Positions 1 to 7,420 of a DNA stretch of 7,420 nt are shown one piece after another. The stretch spans positions 1-7,420 of the forward strand of contig JABIQT010000722.1 in the NCBI GenBank assembly GCA_018667995.1, read 5' to 3'. Position numbers and translations under genes: made by a program. The stretch comes from Candidatus Latescibacterota bacterium. GTDB lineage: Bacteria > JAAXHH01 > JABIQT01. The notes below the pieces were generated by a model. It was not told where the DNA came from and did no database searches. It saw only the letters and a list, made by a program, of their open reading frames with translations. The stretch's first letter is position 1, and every line of letters begins with the position of its first letter.

Positions 1-493
1 CCCATCCGTAGTATTTTATGGCCGTGTATTCTTGCGCCACATAATGGGCCGTTGCCTCCAGCATAGGTTTTGGATCGGCCGGATCCGCCCATACGCTACT
101 CACGTAGACTCGTATTTTCTCACGGTGGCGCCCTCCGAGAAGGACGTATAACGGAATCCTGAGCGTCTTGGCAGCGGCATCCAGGATAGCCATATCCAGG
201 CCGCTCAGAGCGTGGATTGCCAGGCCTCTTGTGTCGTATAGACGCCGGCAGACTTCGTACATCTGCTCCCACAGTTTTGAGGTGTTTAGTATATCCTCTC
301 CAATAACCGCAGGCGCAAGACAGTCGTCAATAATTGACTTCGCACTGAATACGCCCTTACCGGACTGGTGCGGTACGAAACATTCCCCAATTCCTTCGAT
401 GCCTTCATCGGTTTTTACGCGTACCAGGACCCAACCACCGTGCGGATACTCGTAGGATCTCAGTATACTACTGGATATGCCAGATATAACCAT
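1..493 (-). CDS. Mandelate racemase/muconate lactonizing (enolase superfamily) enzyme, 3' part missing
   Basis: Only the first 164 residues are visible; the gene runs off the left edge. The visible part is the N-terminal capping domain of the enolase superfamily, with WVLVRVKTDEGIEGIGE (residues 21-37) and the family signature around ALSGLDMAILDAAAK (95-109), followed by the linker VLLGG (117-121). The first barrel strand ends in AIKYYGW (158-164). K160 matches the first lysine of the KxK motif of mandelate racemase, but the second lysine is Tyr162, so this is probably an acid-sugar dehydratase-like member rather than a racemase. These enzymes abstract the proton alpha to a carboxylate with Mg2+ bound in the barrel; the metal ligands lie outside the window. 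The ATG at 493 is preferred because an in-frame TAG immediately precedes it and GAGGG (498-502) lies 4 nt upstream. It starts 23 bp after the molybdoenzyme gene and is probably the last visible gene of that operon. The family is clear; the substrate is unknown. Confidence 0.88.
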   Translation of the reverse strand, partial: MVISGISSSILRSYEYPHGGWVLVRVKTDEGIEGIGECFVPHQSGKGVFSAKSIIDDCLAPAVIGEDILNTSKLWEQMYEVCRRLYDTRGLAIHALSGLDMAILDAAAKTLRIPLYVLLGGRHREKIRVYVSSVWADPADPKPMLEATAHYVAQEYTAIKYYGW

Positions 494-516: not shown

Positions 517-1554
517 TTACGCCTGCGCACCGTGGCTCTCAAGATAGGCACGTTGTTCCTGAAACAGACCGGTGACGCCTGATAGGCGCATGCCGGTGAC
601 TTGAGCTCCTTCTGATTGTTCGGTATCTGAGTTTTCGTAGAATCGTGCTGCAGTCAAAATCGTATCCCGGAGGTCTGCGCCGCTAAGATCGGTGCCCACG
701 AAGTTGGTCCCCTCAAGATCAGCGCCACGCAGGTCGCACCGGGCCATGTTTGCGCCTCGCAAGCTGCTGTTCGACAGATTGGCCTCACGCAGATCCACAT
801 CCTGCAGCGAAGCCCGCTGCAGATTGCAGTTTTTTAGTTGTAGACGTGAGAGGTCGCTGGTCTTTGGTTGCCAACCGGATAGATCAATACCTACTAGGAC
901 TCGGTCCCGATATCGTGCCAAATCTGTAGATTCGAGAAAGCGTGTGATTTGAGCCGGTCGCATGCTGCCAGATTCGTATCGTTGATCGCCAGGCCAGGGA
1001 TCGCCGTTGTTGTGGTACTTGCTGGTCCGTTCCCAGAATCCCAGGCGGTCCTCCTTGAGGAGTGTAATCCTGTGTAGCCACTTCAAGCTCTTGTAAAAGT
1101 ATCGGGAGGGTGTGATCGATCTTAGGGGACTGCCATGCGCGACTTCGAGCGGCCTACCTTGGGCCTCCGTGACCAGCCAAGTGTTCTCACAGGCTAGCGC
1201 AAGCGGAAGAGAGGTGTCATGATTGCGCTGTGAGTGTGCTCCGAACCAGACAAATCCCGCTTGCTCTCTAACACGAGCCCTCTCGAGCAGCTCCGAGAGC
1301 GGAAATCCCCGGAACTTCATGGCTCGGTATGACCAACCCGTGACACAGTGAATGTCGGTCTTCAGTGTATTTACCGAGAGTGCACGGACTTCTTCGAGTG
1401 GCATGCTTAAAGGATTGTCCACGAGGCCGTCAACGGTCAGACGCCAATTTACCTCATCCAAAGCTTCTGGCGATGGCGACCGTTCCCCGGTGAGTTGGAA
1501 GGACGTGGTAGGCATCTGATTGGGGGGAAGCCATGAGTCGCGGCGGTCAGTCAT
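517..1554 (-). CDS. Sulfite oxidase-fold molybdopterin oxidoreductase fused to C-terminal pentapeptide repeats
   Basis: This encodes a 345-residue two-domain protein. Residues about 36-190 are the oxidoreductase molybdopterin-binding domain of the sulfite oxidase/MsrP family. It shows LTVDGLVDNP (39-48), the Mo-ligand cysteine C70 in IHCVTGWSY, the GSPLR turn (141-145), the YKSLKWLHRI strand (154-163) and the LGFWERTSKYHNNGDPW end motif (171-187). After a linker, residues 223-307 form about 17 tandem pentapeptides of A(D/N)LxG type (for example ADLEG and ADLRD; WQPKT at 228-232 is degenerate), enough for about four coils of a right-handed quadrilateral beta-helix. No signal peptide, twin-arginine motif or membrane segment is visible, so it is probably cytoplasmic, whereas many relatives are exported. 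A 67-residue upstream extension from a TTG at 1755 is possible, but it would lie inside the dioxygenase gene and shows no family similarity. The ATG at 1554 overlaps the preceding stop by 8 bp (ATGACTGA). The redox function is well supported; substrate and electron acceptor are unknown. Confidence 0.9.
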   Translation of the reverse strand: MTDRRDSWLPPNQMPTTSFQLTGERSPSPEALDEVNWRLTVDGLVDNPLSMPLEEVRALSVNTLKTDIHCVTGWSYRAMKFRGFPLSELLERARVREQAGFVWFGAHSQRNHDTSLPLALACENTWLVTEAQGRPLEVAHGSPLRSITPSRYFYKSLKWLHRITLLKEDRLGFWERTSKYHNNGDPWPGDQRYESGSMRPAQITRFLESTDLARYRDRVLVGIDLSGWQPKTSDLSRLQLKNCNLQRASLQDVDLREANLSNSSLRGANMARCDLRGADLEGTNFVGTDLSGADLRDTILTAARFYENSDTEQSEGAQVTGMRLSGVTGLFQEQRAYLESHGAQA

Positions 1555-2392
1555 CGCGTCCCCAGAGGTCCAGGCCCAGGAGATTCCTGCCGAGCGTGGA
1601 AAGGTTGGCTGGCGGGTTATCAGTTTCCAGGCGGCGATCATCACCTGGGAAGGCTGTGCCTTGTGGGTGCAGGCGCTCGCGCCACATTCTGATACGCTGC
1701 TCCCGGGCCTCTTCCGTGGGTGAAACGGCAGGAGACATGGATATATACTGGGCAAGCCTCGGGAGGTCCGATGTATTTCGGCCGTTTCCGTGCGGGAGTA
1801 GGCTGTGCCAGATCAGAAAATCGCCCGCATTTCCGGGAATGGACGTAACATCCAATCCATTAAGGTCCGGACGGTTTGGATCGCGGTCTTCAGGTTGCGT
1901 ATTGACCCAATCCAGAAAGCGTCGGTGAAAGCCAGGAACACACTGGAAACCTCCCTGGTCAGTGCCCGTGTCCGTCAGGTAAAGGACTCCCTGCACACGA
2001 GTTGTGACGGATGTCAGGCCTGTCGTGTCCATGTCCCAATGAATCATCCCGGGGTGATCCCAGTCTGGTTTATCCGATCGTACCGGCGGTTTCATATTCG
2101 CGCGGTCCATGCTCACCCAGAGTTTTTCGGTTCCCCAAATTTCGGTAAATGCCTGGTAGATTTTGGTGGACTGCCGGTTATTCCACAGGCCCTGGGTCTG
2201 GTACATCTCCACCATGCCACCAGGTCGATGTGGTTCCCGGTACCAGTCATTCTGGTCGTTGGGGTCCATGCCGAGAAACTGCCAGATCTCATCGACCACG
2301 GCATTCAGCTGGTATAGAGGAACGGAGTCAGGGATGACCACATATCCGTTTTCTTCCCAGAATGCCATCTGAGTGGCGGACAGGACGCTCAT
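1547..2392 (-). CDS. Phytanoyl-CoA dioxygenase (PhyH) family Fe(II)/2-oxoglutarate oxygenase
   Basis: This encodes a 281-residue soluble protein with the PhyH double-stranded beta-helix fold. The iron-binding HxD motif is H118-W-D120 (MIHWDMD). The distal ligand is H201 in LLPHGNGRNTS, and R212 (DLPRLAQY) is the expected 2-oxoglutarate-binding arginine. Other family marks are GVLYLTD (135-141), the GGFQCVPGFHRRF segment (147-159) and GDFLIWH (190-196). The family hydroxylates small molecules or lipids using O2 and 2-oxoglutarate; the substrate here cannot be predicted. I chose the ATG at 2392 because GGGGAG lies 4 nt upstream. A TTG four codons earlier (2404) sits at the edge of that ribosome binding site and would lack one of its own. 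The gene lies 69 bp after hisF, and its last 8 bp overlap the start of the molybdoenzyme gene, suggesting translational coupling and a shared pathway. There is no signal peptide. Confidence 0.9.
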   Translation of the reverse strand: MSVLSATQMAFWEENGYVVIPDSVPLYQLNAVVDEIWQFLGMDPNDQNDWYREPHRPGGMVEMYQTQGLWNNRQSTKIYQAFTEIWGTEKLWVSMDRANMKPPVRSDKPDWDHPGMIHWDMDTTGLTSVTTRVQGVLYLTDTGTDQGGFQCVPGFHRRFLDWVNTQPEDRDPNRPDLNGLDVTSIPGNAGDFLIWHSLLPHGNGRNTSDLPRLAQYISMSPAVSPTEEAREQRIRMWRERLHPQGTAFPGDDRRLETDNPPANLSTLGRNLLGLDLWGRDD

Positions 2393-2396
2393 ACAG

Positions 2397-2402
2397 CTCC
2401 CC
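2397..2402 (-). promoter_or_regulatory. Ribosome binding site deciding the PhyH gene start
   Basis: On the minus strand this reads GGGGAG, 4 nt before the ATG at 2392. It touches the alternative TTG codon at 2404-2402, which argues against initiation at that TTG. Confidence 0.6.
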
Positions 2403-2461
2403 AATTCACCGGTATCGTACTGAAGTTGGTTTTGGATCGAAGCAGATTGACGGTTGGTTGA

Positions 2462-3238
2462 CTAGGTCAATCTGACGGGCAGTCCCAACTCGTCGAGATA
2501 GGACTTGATATCGTGGACCGAGTAGTCACCGTAGTGTAGCATGGACGCGACCAACGCAGCATCAGCCCCACCGAGTGTAAAGGCCTCATCGAGGTGCTCA
2601 GGATGCCCGCCTCCGCCCGAGGCAATTACAGGAATCGAAACCGAATCAGAAATAATGCGGGTAAGTATCAGTTCATACCCTTCGCGCATGCCATCCGTAT
2701 CGATGGCATTGACGACCAGTTCCCCCGCCCCAAGCTTTTCACCACGTATTGCCCATTTGACGGCGTCCATACCCGTGGGCTTCCGACCGCCATGCGTCAC
2801 GATTTCATAACCTGAAGTGAGCACCGCGAGCGCATCGTTCTTTCTAACGTCCATGGAGAGTACTACGGCCTGAGCGCCGAAGGCTTCAGATACCTCTGTA
2901 ATCAATTCGGGATTTTCCACGGCGGCAGTGTTGAGATTCACTTTCTCGGCTCCGGCCGCCAGGACGCGTCCGCAGTCTTCCACGGACCTCAGCCCACCGC
3001 CGACCGAAAAAGGGATGAAGACCTGAGATGCCACTTCTGAGACCACATCAATCATTATGTCTCGCCGGTCGCTTGATGCGGTAATATCATAGAAAACTAA
3101 CTCGTCGATACCGTCTTCGTAGTATGAGCGGGCCGCCGCAACCGGATCACCTACTTCCTTGGTGTCAACGAACTGCACACTCTTGACGAGCTTTCCGTCC
3201 CGAACATCGAGACATGCAATAATCCGCTTACTTAACAT
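2462..3238 (-). CDS. hisF: Imidazole glycerol phosphate synthase cyclase subunit HisF
   Basis: This encodes a full-length 258-residue (beta/alpha)8 barrel. HisF uses ammonia delivered by HisH to convert PRFAR into imidazole glycerol phosphate and AICAR, linking histidine and purine synthesis in the cytoplasm. Both catalytic aspartates are present at canonical positions: D11 (ACLDVRDG) and D130 (LSMDVRKN). K19, the phosphate-binding glycines in FSVGGGLRS (77-85) and VIASGGGG (204-211), YDITASS (50-56) and THGGRKPTG (148-156) are also conserved. From memory it resembles the HisF type of deltaproteobacteria such as Desulfovibrio more than the WbuZ-like HisF paralogues used in surface-sugar synthesis, which lack several of these motifs. 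The ATG at 3238 gives the usual N-terminus (MLSKRIIACLD); the ribosome binding site is weak (GGAT). It follows hisH by 15 bp, so the two subunits are made together. Its normal neighbour hisA is absent. Confidence 0.96.
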   Translation of the reverse strand: MLSKRIIACLDVRDGKLVKSVQFVDTKEVGDPVAAARSYYEDGIDELVFYDITASSDRRDIMIDVVSEVASQVFIPFSVGGGLRSVEDCGRVLAAGAEKVNLNTAAVENPELITEVSEAFGAQAVVLSMDVRKNDALAVLTSGYEIVTHGGRKPTGMDAVKWAIRGEKLGAGELVVNAIDTDGMREGYELILTRIISDSVSIPVIASGGGGHPEHLDEAFTLGGADAALVASMLHYGDYSVHDIKSYLDELGLPVRLT

Positions 3239-3253
3239 AGCCGCGATCCATTG

Positions 3254-3880
3254 TCATACGTCATCTGTTTCGCCATCCCATTCTGCGAAATTCTTTAGCA
3301 TACGTAAACCAACCGGTCCGCTCTTTTCCACATGAAATTGTACGGCAAAGAGATTTCGGTGGCCGAGAGCAGCAGTGAATTCAATTTCGTGGTCAGATGT
3401 GGCAAAAACGTGTGAGGATTCTGAAGGTTCGGGGTAGTAAGAGTGCACGAAATACACTTCGTCAATAGGACTGAGACCTTCGAGTATAGGGTGATGTCTC
3501 TTCACGGCGAGGCGATTCCACCCCATATGGGGCACCTTCGTATGCTCCTGGACTGGCTCAAACCGGCGACAATTACCTTGTATGAGATCAAGGCAATTGG
3601 CCTCGTCTTCTTCGGAACGGGTCATGATAATCTGGCACCCGATACAAATTCCGAGAATAGGGATCCGGTGCCAGTAGGCATCGGTCAAGGCCCTATCGAT
3701 CCCCGTCTCTTTCAACACTCGCATGGCTGACTTGGCACGACCGACACCCGGAAAAATCAGGCGTTCTGCACCACGGACTTCGTCGCTGTCCTTAGTGATG
3801 GTAGAAGCCACGCCCATATGATCCAAGGCGCGCTTGACCGAAGTCGCGTTTCCGGCTTCGTAGTCGATAATGTGAATCAT
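3254..3880 (-). CDS. hisH: Imidazole glycerol phosphate synthase glutaminase subunit HisH
   Basis: This encodes a 208-residue class I glutamine amidotransferase, the usual HisH length. It hydrolyses glutamine and passes ammonia through the HisF barrel. Visible motifs are IIDYEAGNATSV (4-15), FPGVG (43-47), the nucleophile C79 in LGICIGCQI, KVPHMGWN (115-122), YFVHSYY (143-149) and the catalytic His183/Glu185 in QFHVEKSG. The triad is intact, but the proline usual between His and Glu (HPE) is Val184. It is the first gene of the minus-strand operon, 43 nt downstream of the start site predicted from a promoter at 3930-3959; the ribosome binding site before the ATG at 3880 is weak (AGAAA). The GICIGCQI form and the GNATS N-terminus again resemble the deltaproteobacterial type. 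The function is well supported, although a specialised paralogue cannot be excluded because no other his gene is present. Confidence 0.95.
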   Translation of the reverse strand: MIHIIDYEAGNATSVKRALDHMGVASTITKDSDEVRGAERLIFPGVGRAKSAMRVLKETGIDRALTDAYWHRIPILGICIGCQIIMTRSEEDEANCLDLIQGNCRRFEPVQEHTKVPHMGWNRLAVKRHHPILEGLSPIDEVYFVHSYYPEPSESSHVFATSDHEIEFTAALGHRNLFAVQFHVEKSGPVGLRMLKNFAEWDGETDDV

Positions 3881-6195: not shown

Positions 6196-7420
6196 TCAGA
6201 AGCGATACCAAGGCACCTGTTCAACTCGGCAGAGCACTGATTCCATATCGTTGAAGAGGATTTTCTTGGGCTTGCTGCGTACAGCGGGTAGCTCGAATTG
6301 TGCACCAACGCCCTGTATCGGTACACGCACAGTAGTGCGCATTCCATCCTCAGATTCGATGGTGATGGGAACGGCCATCTGGAACTCACGAGGAACATTT
6401 CCCTGACCTACTTTGCAGTGAACCACGTAGCGGTTACCGGCGACCTGCTCCACCCTATAACTGAAGAGGTACGTGGGTATTTCTGCGCCATACACCCATT
6501 GGTTAAAGAACCATCCCAAATCCGAGCCAGCGTGCTCTTCCATAATCTGTTGAAAGTCGGATGTGGAGGCCTGCTTTCCCCGATATTTGTCGTAGTACTC
6601 CCGCAAGCCAGCCAGAAAACGTCCGTCGCTTCCTGTGTCCAGATCTCTCATGTAACTGCGTAGCATGTGAAAGACCCATGCGCCTTTCTGGTAGACTATG
6701 GTGCTGTAGTTGATGCCCATGATGGCTGAGCTGTTTCGATATCCAAGCCAGAGGGGGCCTGCTTGCCGTCCGCCTCGGGATGGGCCGTCGCTAATCTCTA
6801 TGATGTGTTTCTTCCAAATACGAAGCAGGTCAATATACCGCTCGAAACCATCCTGCTCCGTCTCAAGAAAGAGCAGGCCGCAGTAGGTGGCCAGACCCTC
6901 ACTCAGCCACTGGTCATGATAGCTGGTGAAGTCCACATCGATGCCCCACCACTGATGTGCCACTTCATGCGCTCGGAAAACGGCTTCGTAGCCTCTCGGT
7001 GACAGGTCGAGCGTACCCGACCAGGAAAGGTGCAACATACCTGGAAAGGCCAATCCATGAGGGAACGGTGTTTCAGTTACATAGAGCCGGTCTGCCTGAA
7101 CCTGGCCGAACTGCTGGCGGAATAGTTTAAAACTCCCGACCACGTCATCACTCACCTCCTGATCCAAGTCTCCTCGGTTGTCCTCTATGGCCAGAACGGT
7201 GATGGGTACCATACCAAAATCCTGAATTTCGTGAGGATTGTAGTATCCGATGTTGAATGCCGCATTCCGAATGGCACCTTTTGTCAACCATCGCGATGTG
7301 GTCATGACTCCCTTGGACTCGGAATGCTGTAAATCGCCTACACTTATCAGCTTCAGCTCTTTTGGAGCAGTGAATGTGAGATCAAAGGTAGCCGCGTCAC
7401 GGCCACCATGGCGAGGATAC
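6196..7420 (-). CDS. M1-family zinc metallopeptidase (aminopeptidase), 5' part missing
   Basis: The last 407 codons are visible; the reading frame stays open to the right edge, so an apparent ATG at 7305 is internal. Visible residues 1-58 (YPRHGGRDAATFDLTF, then SVGDL and AAFNIGYY) are the end of the N-terminal beta domain typical of M1 peptidases. The zinc site is HEVAHQWWG starting at H151, with the third ligand E174 18 residues after the second histidine (WLSEGLATY). The transition-state tyrosine is Y243 in IVYQKGAWVFHML. The substrate-binding GAMEN region is divergent (GLAFPGMLHLSW), so specificity may differ from classical aminopeptidase N. The last 90 or so residues look like an Ig-like beta domain (FSYRVEQV to ITIESEDGM to KILFNDMES). 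Whether it is exported cannot be judged because the N-terminus is missing. It lies 97 bp upstream of the methyltransferase gene on the same strand. The function is probably cleavage of N-terminal residues from peptides. Confidence 0.92.
   Translation of the reverse strand, partial: YPRHGGRDAATFDLTFTAPKELKLISVGDLQHSESKGVMTTSRWLTKGAIRNAAFNIGYYNPHEIQDFGMVPITVLAIEDNRGDLDQEVSDDVVGSFKLFRQQFGQVQADRLYVTETPFPHGLAFPGMLHLSWSGTLDLSPRGYEAVFRAHEVAHQWWGIDVDFTSYHDQWLSEGLATYCGLLFLETEQDGFERYIDLLRIWKKHIIEISDGPSRGGRQAGPLWLGYRNSSAIMGINYSTIVYQKGAWVFHMLRSYMRDLDTGSDGRFLAGLREYYDKYRGKQASTSDFQQIMEEHAGSDLGWFFNQWVYGAEIPTYLFSYRVEQVAGNRYVVHCKVGQGNVPREFQMAVPITIESEDGMRTTVRVPIQGVGAQFELPAVRSKPKKILFNDMESVLCRVEQVPWYRF

Follow-up and report, generated by a model that had tools for sequence, protein, structure and literature searches.

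The reverse strand of the window, by which we mean the whole 7,420-base stretch of DNA analysed, carries a gene (517..1554 (-); supported by translation, Pfam and 72 full-length homologues) that joins a sulfite oxidase (SO)-fold molybdoenzyme to a pentapeptide-repeat rod. The fusion is genuine, occurs widely and, within a known enzyme family, represents a domain architecture that is apparently undescribed. The evidence points to a rod that docks onto the protein's own catalytic domain, and we infer from structural models that it may act as a wall of the substrate pocket, the best-supported mechanism and one with about an even chance of being right.

Two domains in one reading frame

Translation of 517-1554 (-) gives a 345-aa protein with no internal stops and both domains in a single frame. 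The catalytic domain, Oxidored_molyb (PF00174), occupies residues 29-174 (1033..1470 (-); E = 2.3e-32, 112 bits versus a cut-off of 24) and matches the structure of MsrP/YedY (1xdy, Z 20.6). Cys70 (1345..1347 (-)), the predicted Mo ligand, lies in a C-V-T-G-W-S motif, aligns with the E. coli MsrP Cys and is invariant across the alignment of 72 homologues, which together with the Pfam match identifies an SO fold and bears out the first-pass annotation of a complete Mo-pterin domain with its Cys ligand. PruR pterin-binding proteins share the fold of the catalytic domain (Z about 15, L096 protein model) yet bind pterin rather than Moco, so the fold alone is no proof of Mo binding. A linker follows (residues 175-217; 904..1032 (-)), containing a Y180-H181-N182-x-x-D185-P186-W187 segment that the alignment shows to be common to the fusion and its unfused cytoplasmic relatives.

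The rod itself spans residues 218-307 (634..903 (-)) and is a right-handed quadrilateral beta-helix of tandem A(D/N)LXX repeats (PF00805; E = 1e-19, 70 bits versus a cut-off of 20.2). As had been read from the sequence, about 17 pentapeptides run on in frame from the Mo-pterin domain (residues 223-307, nt 888-634), and DSSP assigns the predicted model one strand per five residues between about 219 and 304. A C-terminal cap follows (residues 308-345; 520..633 (-)), with a helix at 332-340 in the secondary structure of the model and a consensus family motif, GLLEDQEAFL. When aligned with VIA-align 2, the rod and C-terminal helix matched the Rfr protein 2g0y closely (Z 19.7, rmsd 1.5, 119 residues), and the match takes in the cap helix both there (217-345) and on MfpA (196-345). 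The rod thus resembles known pentapeptide repeat proteins (Rfr proteins 2g0y/2f3l, MfpA, Qnr and HetL) in its quadrilateral beta-helix and C-terminal cap helix, but differs from them in being joined to a molybdoenzyme and in having a single conserved face.

A widespread but patchy fusion

Among 84,980 species genomes scanned, 171 related stretches were found; 80 of these were retained, most of them matching over the full length. Both Pfam domains were present in 72/72 complete, non-redundant homologues, so the fusion is not a product of chance or of an assembly join. The join of two separate genes, which the first-pass annotation had named as a possible refutation, is ruled out by these 72 independent full-length cases.

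Nor is the fusion peculiar to this genome: about a dozen phyla contribute at least 72 full-length examples. By record title, the hosts are Acidobacteriota, Actinomycetota (Acidimicrobiia), Myxococcota, Pseudomonadota (Nevskia and others), Planctomycetota, Verrucomicrobiota, Chloroflexota, Calditrichota, Latescibacterota, Zixiibacteriota and Fraserbacteria, and named carriers include Rhodopirellula sp. JC639 and Sessilibacter corallicola. The distribution is patchy: the fusion occurs in 4/16 genomes and 4/5 genera of the window's own phylum and, at full length, in 8/294 genomes of Planctomycetota (a ninth match covers the catalytic part only), while none was found at full length among the sampled genomes of other families of the domain. 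One genome (G005) has a match over residues 29-305 with an internal TGA. In the single-cell genome Verrucomicrobia SCGC AAA164-E04, two contigs (L081 4393 and L082 4454) encode identical fusion proteins, and a stop occurs close to the 5' end of the frame that was matched; the two are probably an assembly duplicate with the true start further on.

No paper describing a Mo-pterin/pentapeptide fusion was found in the literature searched (a mention in an older review of the fold is possible), which agrees with the earlier impression that this is not an established architecture. A search for YuiH together with sulfite oxidase likewise returned nothing.

Relationship to cytoplasmic enzymes of the sulfite oxidase fold

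No N-terminal export signal is visible in the 345-aa translation. The first-pass annotation had noted this absence, correctly, and had called it unusual for the fold, which it is not: uncharacterised single-subunit cytoplasmic enzymes are already recognised as group 3 of the SO family (PMC7759655), and because both these and the nearest unfused group are cytoplasmic too, the missing signal is ordinary. In a catalytic-domain tree built with a quick method, the 78 fused rows all fall on one side of a single branch (SH-aLRT 95). Closest to them among the unfused is a group of proteins of about 200 aa that carry the same PPGQ, HCVTxWS and GDPW motifs as the fusion and lack a signal peptide. With no export signal, no dimerisation domain and a sister position in this tree, the fusion falls with the cytoplasmic single-subunit group, an assignment made by setting it beside the description of group 3 rather than against its exact membership. 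We take these group 3 enzymes to be YuiH-type.

Like the fusion, the unfused enzymes carry an N-terminal PPGQ.xT..FPV motif, followed by DxHCVTxWS, Y..KS.KW and GFWE..GYH..GDPW..ER, and have no export signal. Unlike the fusion, these members of the sister clade end at about 200 aa, stopping in the alignment soon after the shared GDPW segment, without a rod or any rod-like wall. Several catalytic-domain residues are found only in the fused set, where nearly all are invariant (G23-E24, S108, R110, H112, S115, Y154 and L157), and these are sequence-based candidates for pocket-side or interface positions. In one genome (G001), an unfused SO-fold protein of about 200 aa, also cytoplasmic (L120 1536-2090 (-)), occurs in addition to a fused copy, so the two types can coexist.

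Among characterised proteins, MsrP (YedY; group 1 of the SO family), a protein methionine sulfoxide reductase, has the same Mo-pterin fold (1xdy, Z 20.6, rmsd 2.4, 178 residues) and shares a C-V-x-x-W-S pattern around the Mo-ligand Cys (C-V-E-A-W-S in E. coli MsrP versus C-V-T-G-W-S in the fusion). MsrP has no SO dimerisation domain, and according to Pfam the fusion lacks it as well. Judging by the Cys motif, the chemistry of the fusion would be MsrP-like and of the reductase type. The fusion nevertheless differs from MsrP in its added rod, in sequence (22-24% identity to the E. coli protein for most members), in its score against the MsrP family NF003767 of NCBIfam (61.6 bits versus a cut-off of 207) and in having no visible Tat signal at its N-terminus; Pfam found no msrQ in the window.

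Sulfite oxidase, SorA, SorT, SoxC and assimilatory nitrate reductase also share the catalytic fold (Z about 15-20) but have their own C-terminal dimerisation domain and an Arg190-type Cys loop, and the fusion has neither. Pfam detects the Mo-co dimerisation domain (PF03404) in none of the 72 members at E 0.001. Chicken SO Arg190 binds sulfite (PMC5856855); in the fusion no sulfite-binding Arg stands five residues after the Mo-ligand Cys, where the window protein has Ser (C70-V-T-G-W-S-Y) and aligned members Ser or Thr. The SoxC, SorA and SorT equivalogs score 47, 34 and 30 bits against cut-offs of 420, 600 and 570, and every NCBIfam equivalog of the SO family is below cut-off for the fusion.

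A conserved rod face proposed to lie near the active site

We grouped rod residues according to where they lie on the four-sided coil and compared outward-pointing residues face by face. Conservation was confined to a single face (mean entropy, 1.28 bits versus 2.17, 2.26 and 2.41 on the others), with residues 240, 260, 280 and 300 at its center. Shuffling of positions gave p = 0.0004 for this contrast, with a shuffle that takes no account of how common N (at i-1) and G (at i+2) are in any pentapeptide. In the alignment, the conserved residues are K241 (832..834 (-)), which is only ever Lys or Arg (72/72 homologues); N259 (invariant), L260 and S261 (Ser/Thr) on the second coil (772..780 (-)); and D279, L280, E281 and G282 (invariant) on the third (709..720 (-)).

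An AlphaFold2 model of the window protein, computed as a single chain without cofactor from the 72-sequence alignment, reached a pLDDT of 95.7 and a pTM of 0.90; the two domains are therefore placed confidently relative to each other. Prediction of the full protein alone, proposed earlier as a check, thus returned a fixed domain arrangement. With VIA-align 2, the catalytic part matched MsrP and sulfite oxidases, and many alignments with SO structures ended at rod residue 242, 261 or 262, of which 242 and 262 lie one coil apart on the conserved face. Opposite these ends are chicken SO 451-452, plant SO 375, yeast nitrate reductase 426-429, SorT 380-383 and TtSO 366, a placement read from first and last aligned residues, where an isolated residue may match by chance. 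The plant and yeast positions are presumably equivalent to the chicken SO Arg450 site, and K241 is the rod residue nearest to that site by the alignment ends. Chicken SO 451-452 adjoins the substrate-binding Arg450, which binds sulfate or sulfite (PMC5856855). For the Rhodopirellula member, a model made from subfamily B sequences alone, again as a single chain without cofactor (pLDDT 89.9, pTM 0.78), is less certain and partly dependent on the first, whose alignment also includes these sequences, but ends on the same SO places (residues 238-240 and 259, equal to window 241-243 and 262), with R238, the counterpart of K241, on SO 450 in two entries. From the alignment ends of both models, we take the rod face to sit where the SO dimerisation domain covers the pocket.

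The explanation that we favor is a cytoplasmic single-subunit SO-fold molybdoenzyme with an MsrP-like Cys motif, in which the rod is a permanent C-terminal domain. Its conserved face would pack on the Mo-pterin domain, over the active-site side that SO covers with its dimerisation domain, and would form a second wall of the substrate pocket in place of that domain. The strictly basic K241, near the Arg450 place in the models, would then bind an anionic or strongly polar substrate. The fusion, its conservation and single clade, the one conserved face and the domain arrangement are computed results; on the explanation as a whole, with the rod face over the active site and K241 near the Arg450 place, we are evenly divided, and the conserved face could act merely as a structural interface. 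Going further, a rod that acts in the active site and donates a Lys or Arg at the Arg450 site would mark a widespread, unstudied family of cytoplasmic molybdoenzymes with a substrate of their own, a proposal that we make tentatively and hold at somewhat less than an even chance.

Pentapeptide rods are common in bacterial genomes, and the few with a known role are mostly DNA mimics; no pocket-wall role for them is described in the papers searched. Here about a dozen phyla keep a rod fused to a single redox enzyme, and the rod has one conserved face that seems to be directed to the active site. If the pocket-wall role is true, the sulfite oxidase pocket would have a second, unrelated means of closure, and the fusions would make up a molybdoenzyme family so far unstudied, with K241, N259, E281, H112 and Y154 as clear targets for mutation.

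Other possible roles for the rod

The rod may instead serve chiefly in dimerisation or oligomerisation, taking the place of the SO dimerisation domain, its C-terminal helix pairing subunits as in MfpA and Qnr and its conserved face merely holding the rod to the catalytic domain. The match to solved pentapeptide proteins, which includes the cap helix, and the retention of GLLEDQEAFL in most family members are consistent with such a role, but subfamily B has a different C-terminal motif and the strongest conservation lies on the rod face, not in the C-terminal helix. We consider it unlikely as the chief role. An oligomer role for the helix is nonetheless possible, and the two explanations are compatible rather than opposed.

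The first-pass annotation had suggested that the rod docks a partner, for instance the coupled dioxygenase. This PhyH-type dioxygenase, assigned by Pfam, lies directly upstream (1547..2404 (-)), and its stop overlaps the fusion start codon by 8 nt, so the two are probably co-translated. Further upstream are hisF (2462-3238 (-); NCBIfam TIGR00735, over cut-off) and hisH (3254-3880 (-); TIGR01855, over cut-off), giving the order hisH, hisF, phyH and fusion on the same strand (window 1547-3880 for the first three). Outside the window, the PhyH (66% identical) and HisF order recurs in G011 and G013 only; among the loci, L036 keeps the order hisH-hisF-phyH-fusion and L007 has hisF-phyH-fusion. The conserved face could serve as a binding surface for the dioxygenase, a redox partner or a protein substrate, but gene calls across 75 loci revealed no family-wide conserved partner, synteny being lineage-level only. 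Because the dioxygenase accompanies the fusion only in close relatives (three genera of the order), it is unlikely to be the reason for the rod, and the suggestion fails for the family. The structural alignments, moreover, have the conserved face looking onto the catalytic domain of the same protein, and docking of any separate protein appears improbable to us.

That the rod is a Qnr/MfpA-like DNA mimic carried by an enzyme is extremely unlikely: despite the similar fold and weak model matches, the rod scores far under the curated NCBIfam cut-offs of these gyrase-protecting families (35 versus 240 bits for Qnr, 27.9 versus 360 for MfpA), and its conserved residues form no acidic strip.

Several further features of the neighborhood were observed. 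The remaining histidine operon genes are not in the window, although hisHF-phyH-fusion travel together in three genera of the order. In Nevskia relatives (upstream flanks of L058, L060, L065, L067 and L076), the fusion has constant neighbors, a glutathione synthetase-like gene and, on the opposite strand, algH-, yqgF- and pyrB-like genes (named by eye from sequence). In the window, an enolase-superfamily enzyme (2-493) and an M1 peptidase (6196-7419) are cut by the ends of the contig.
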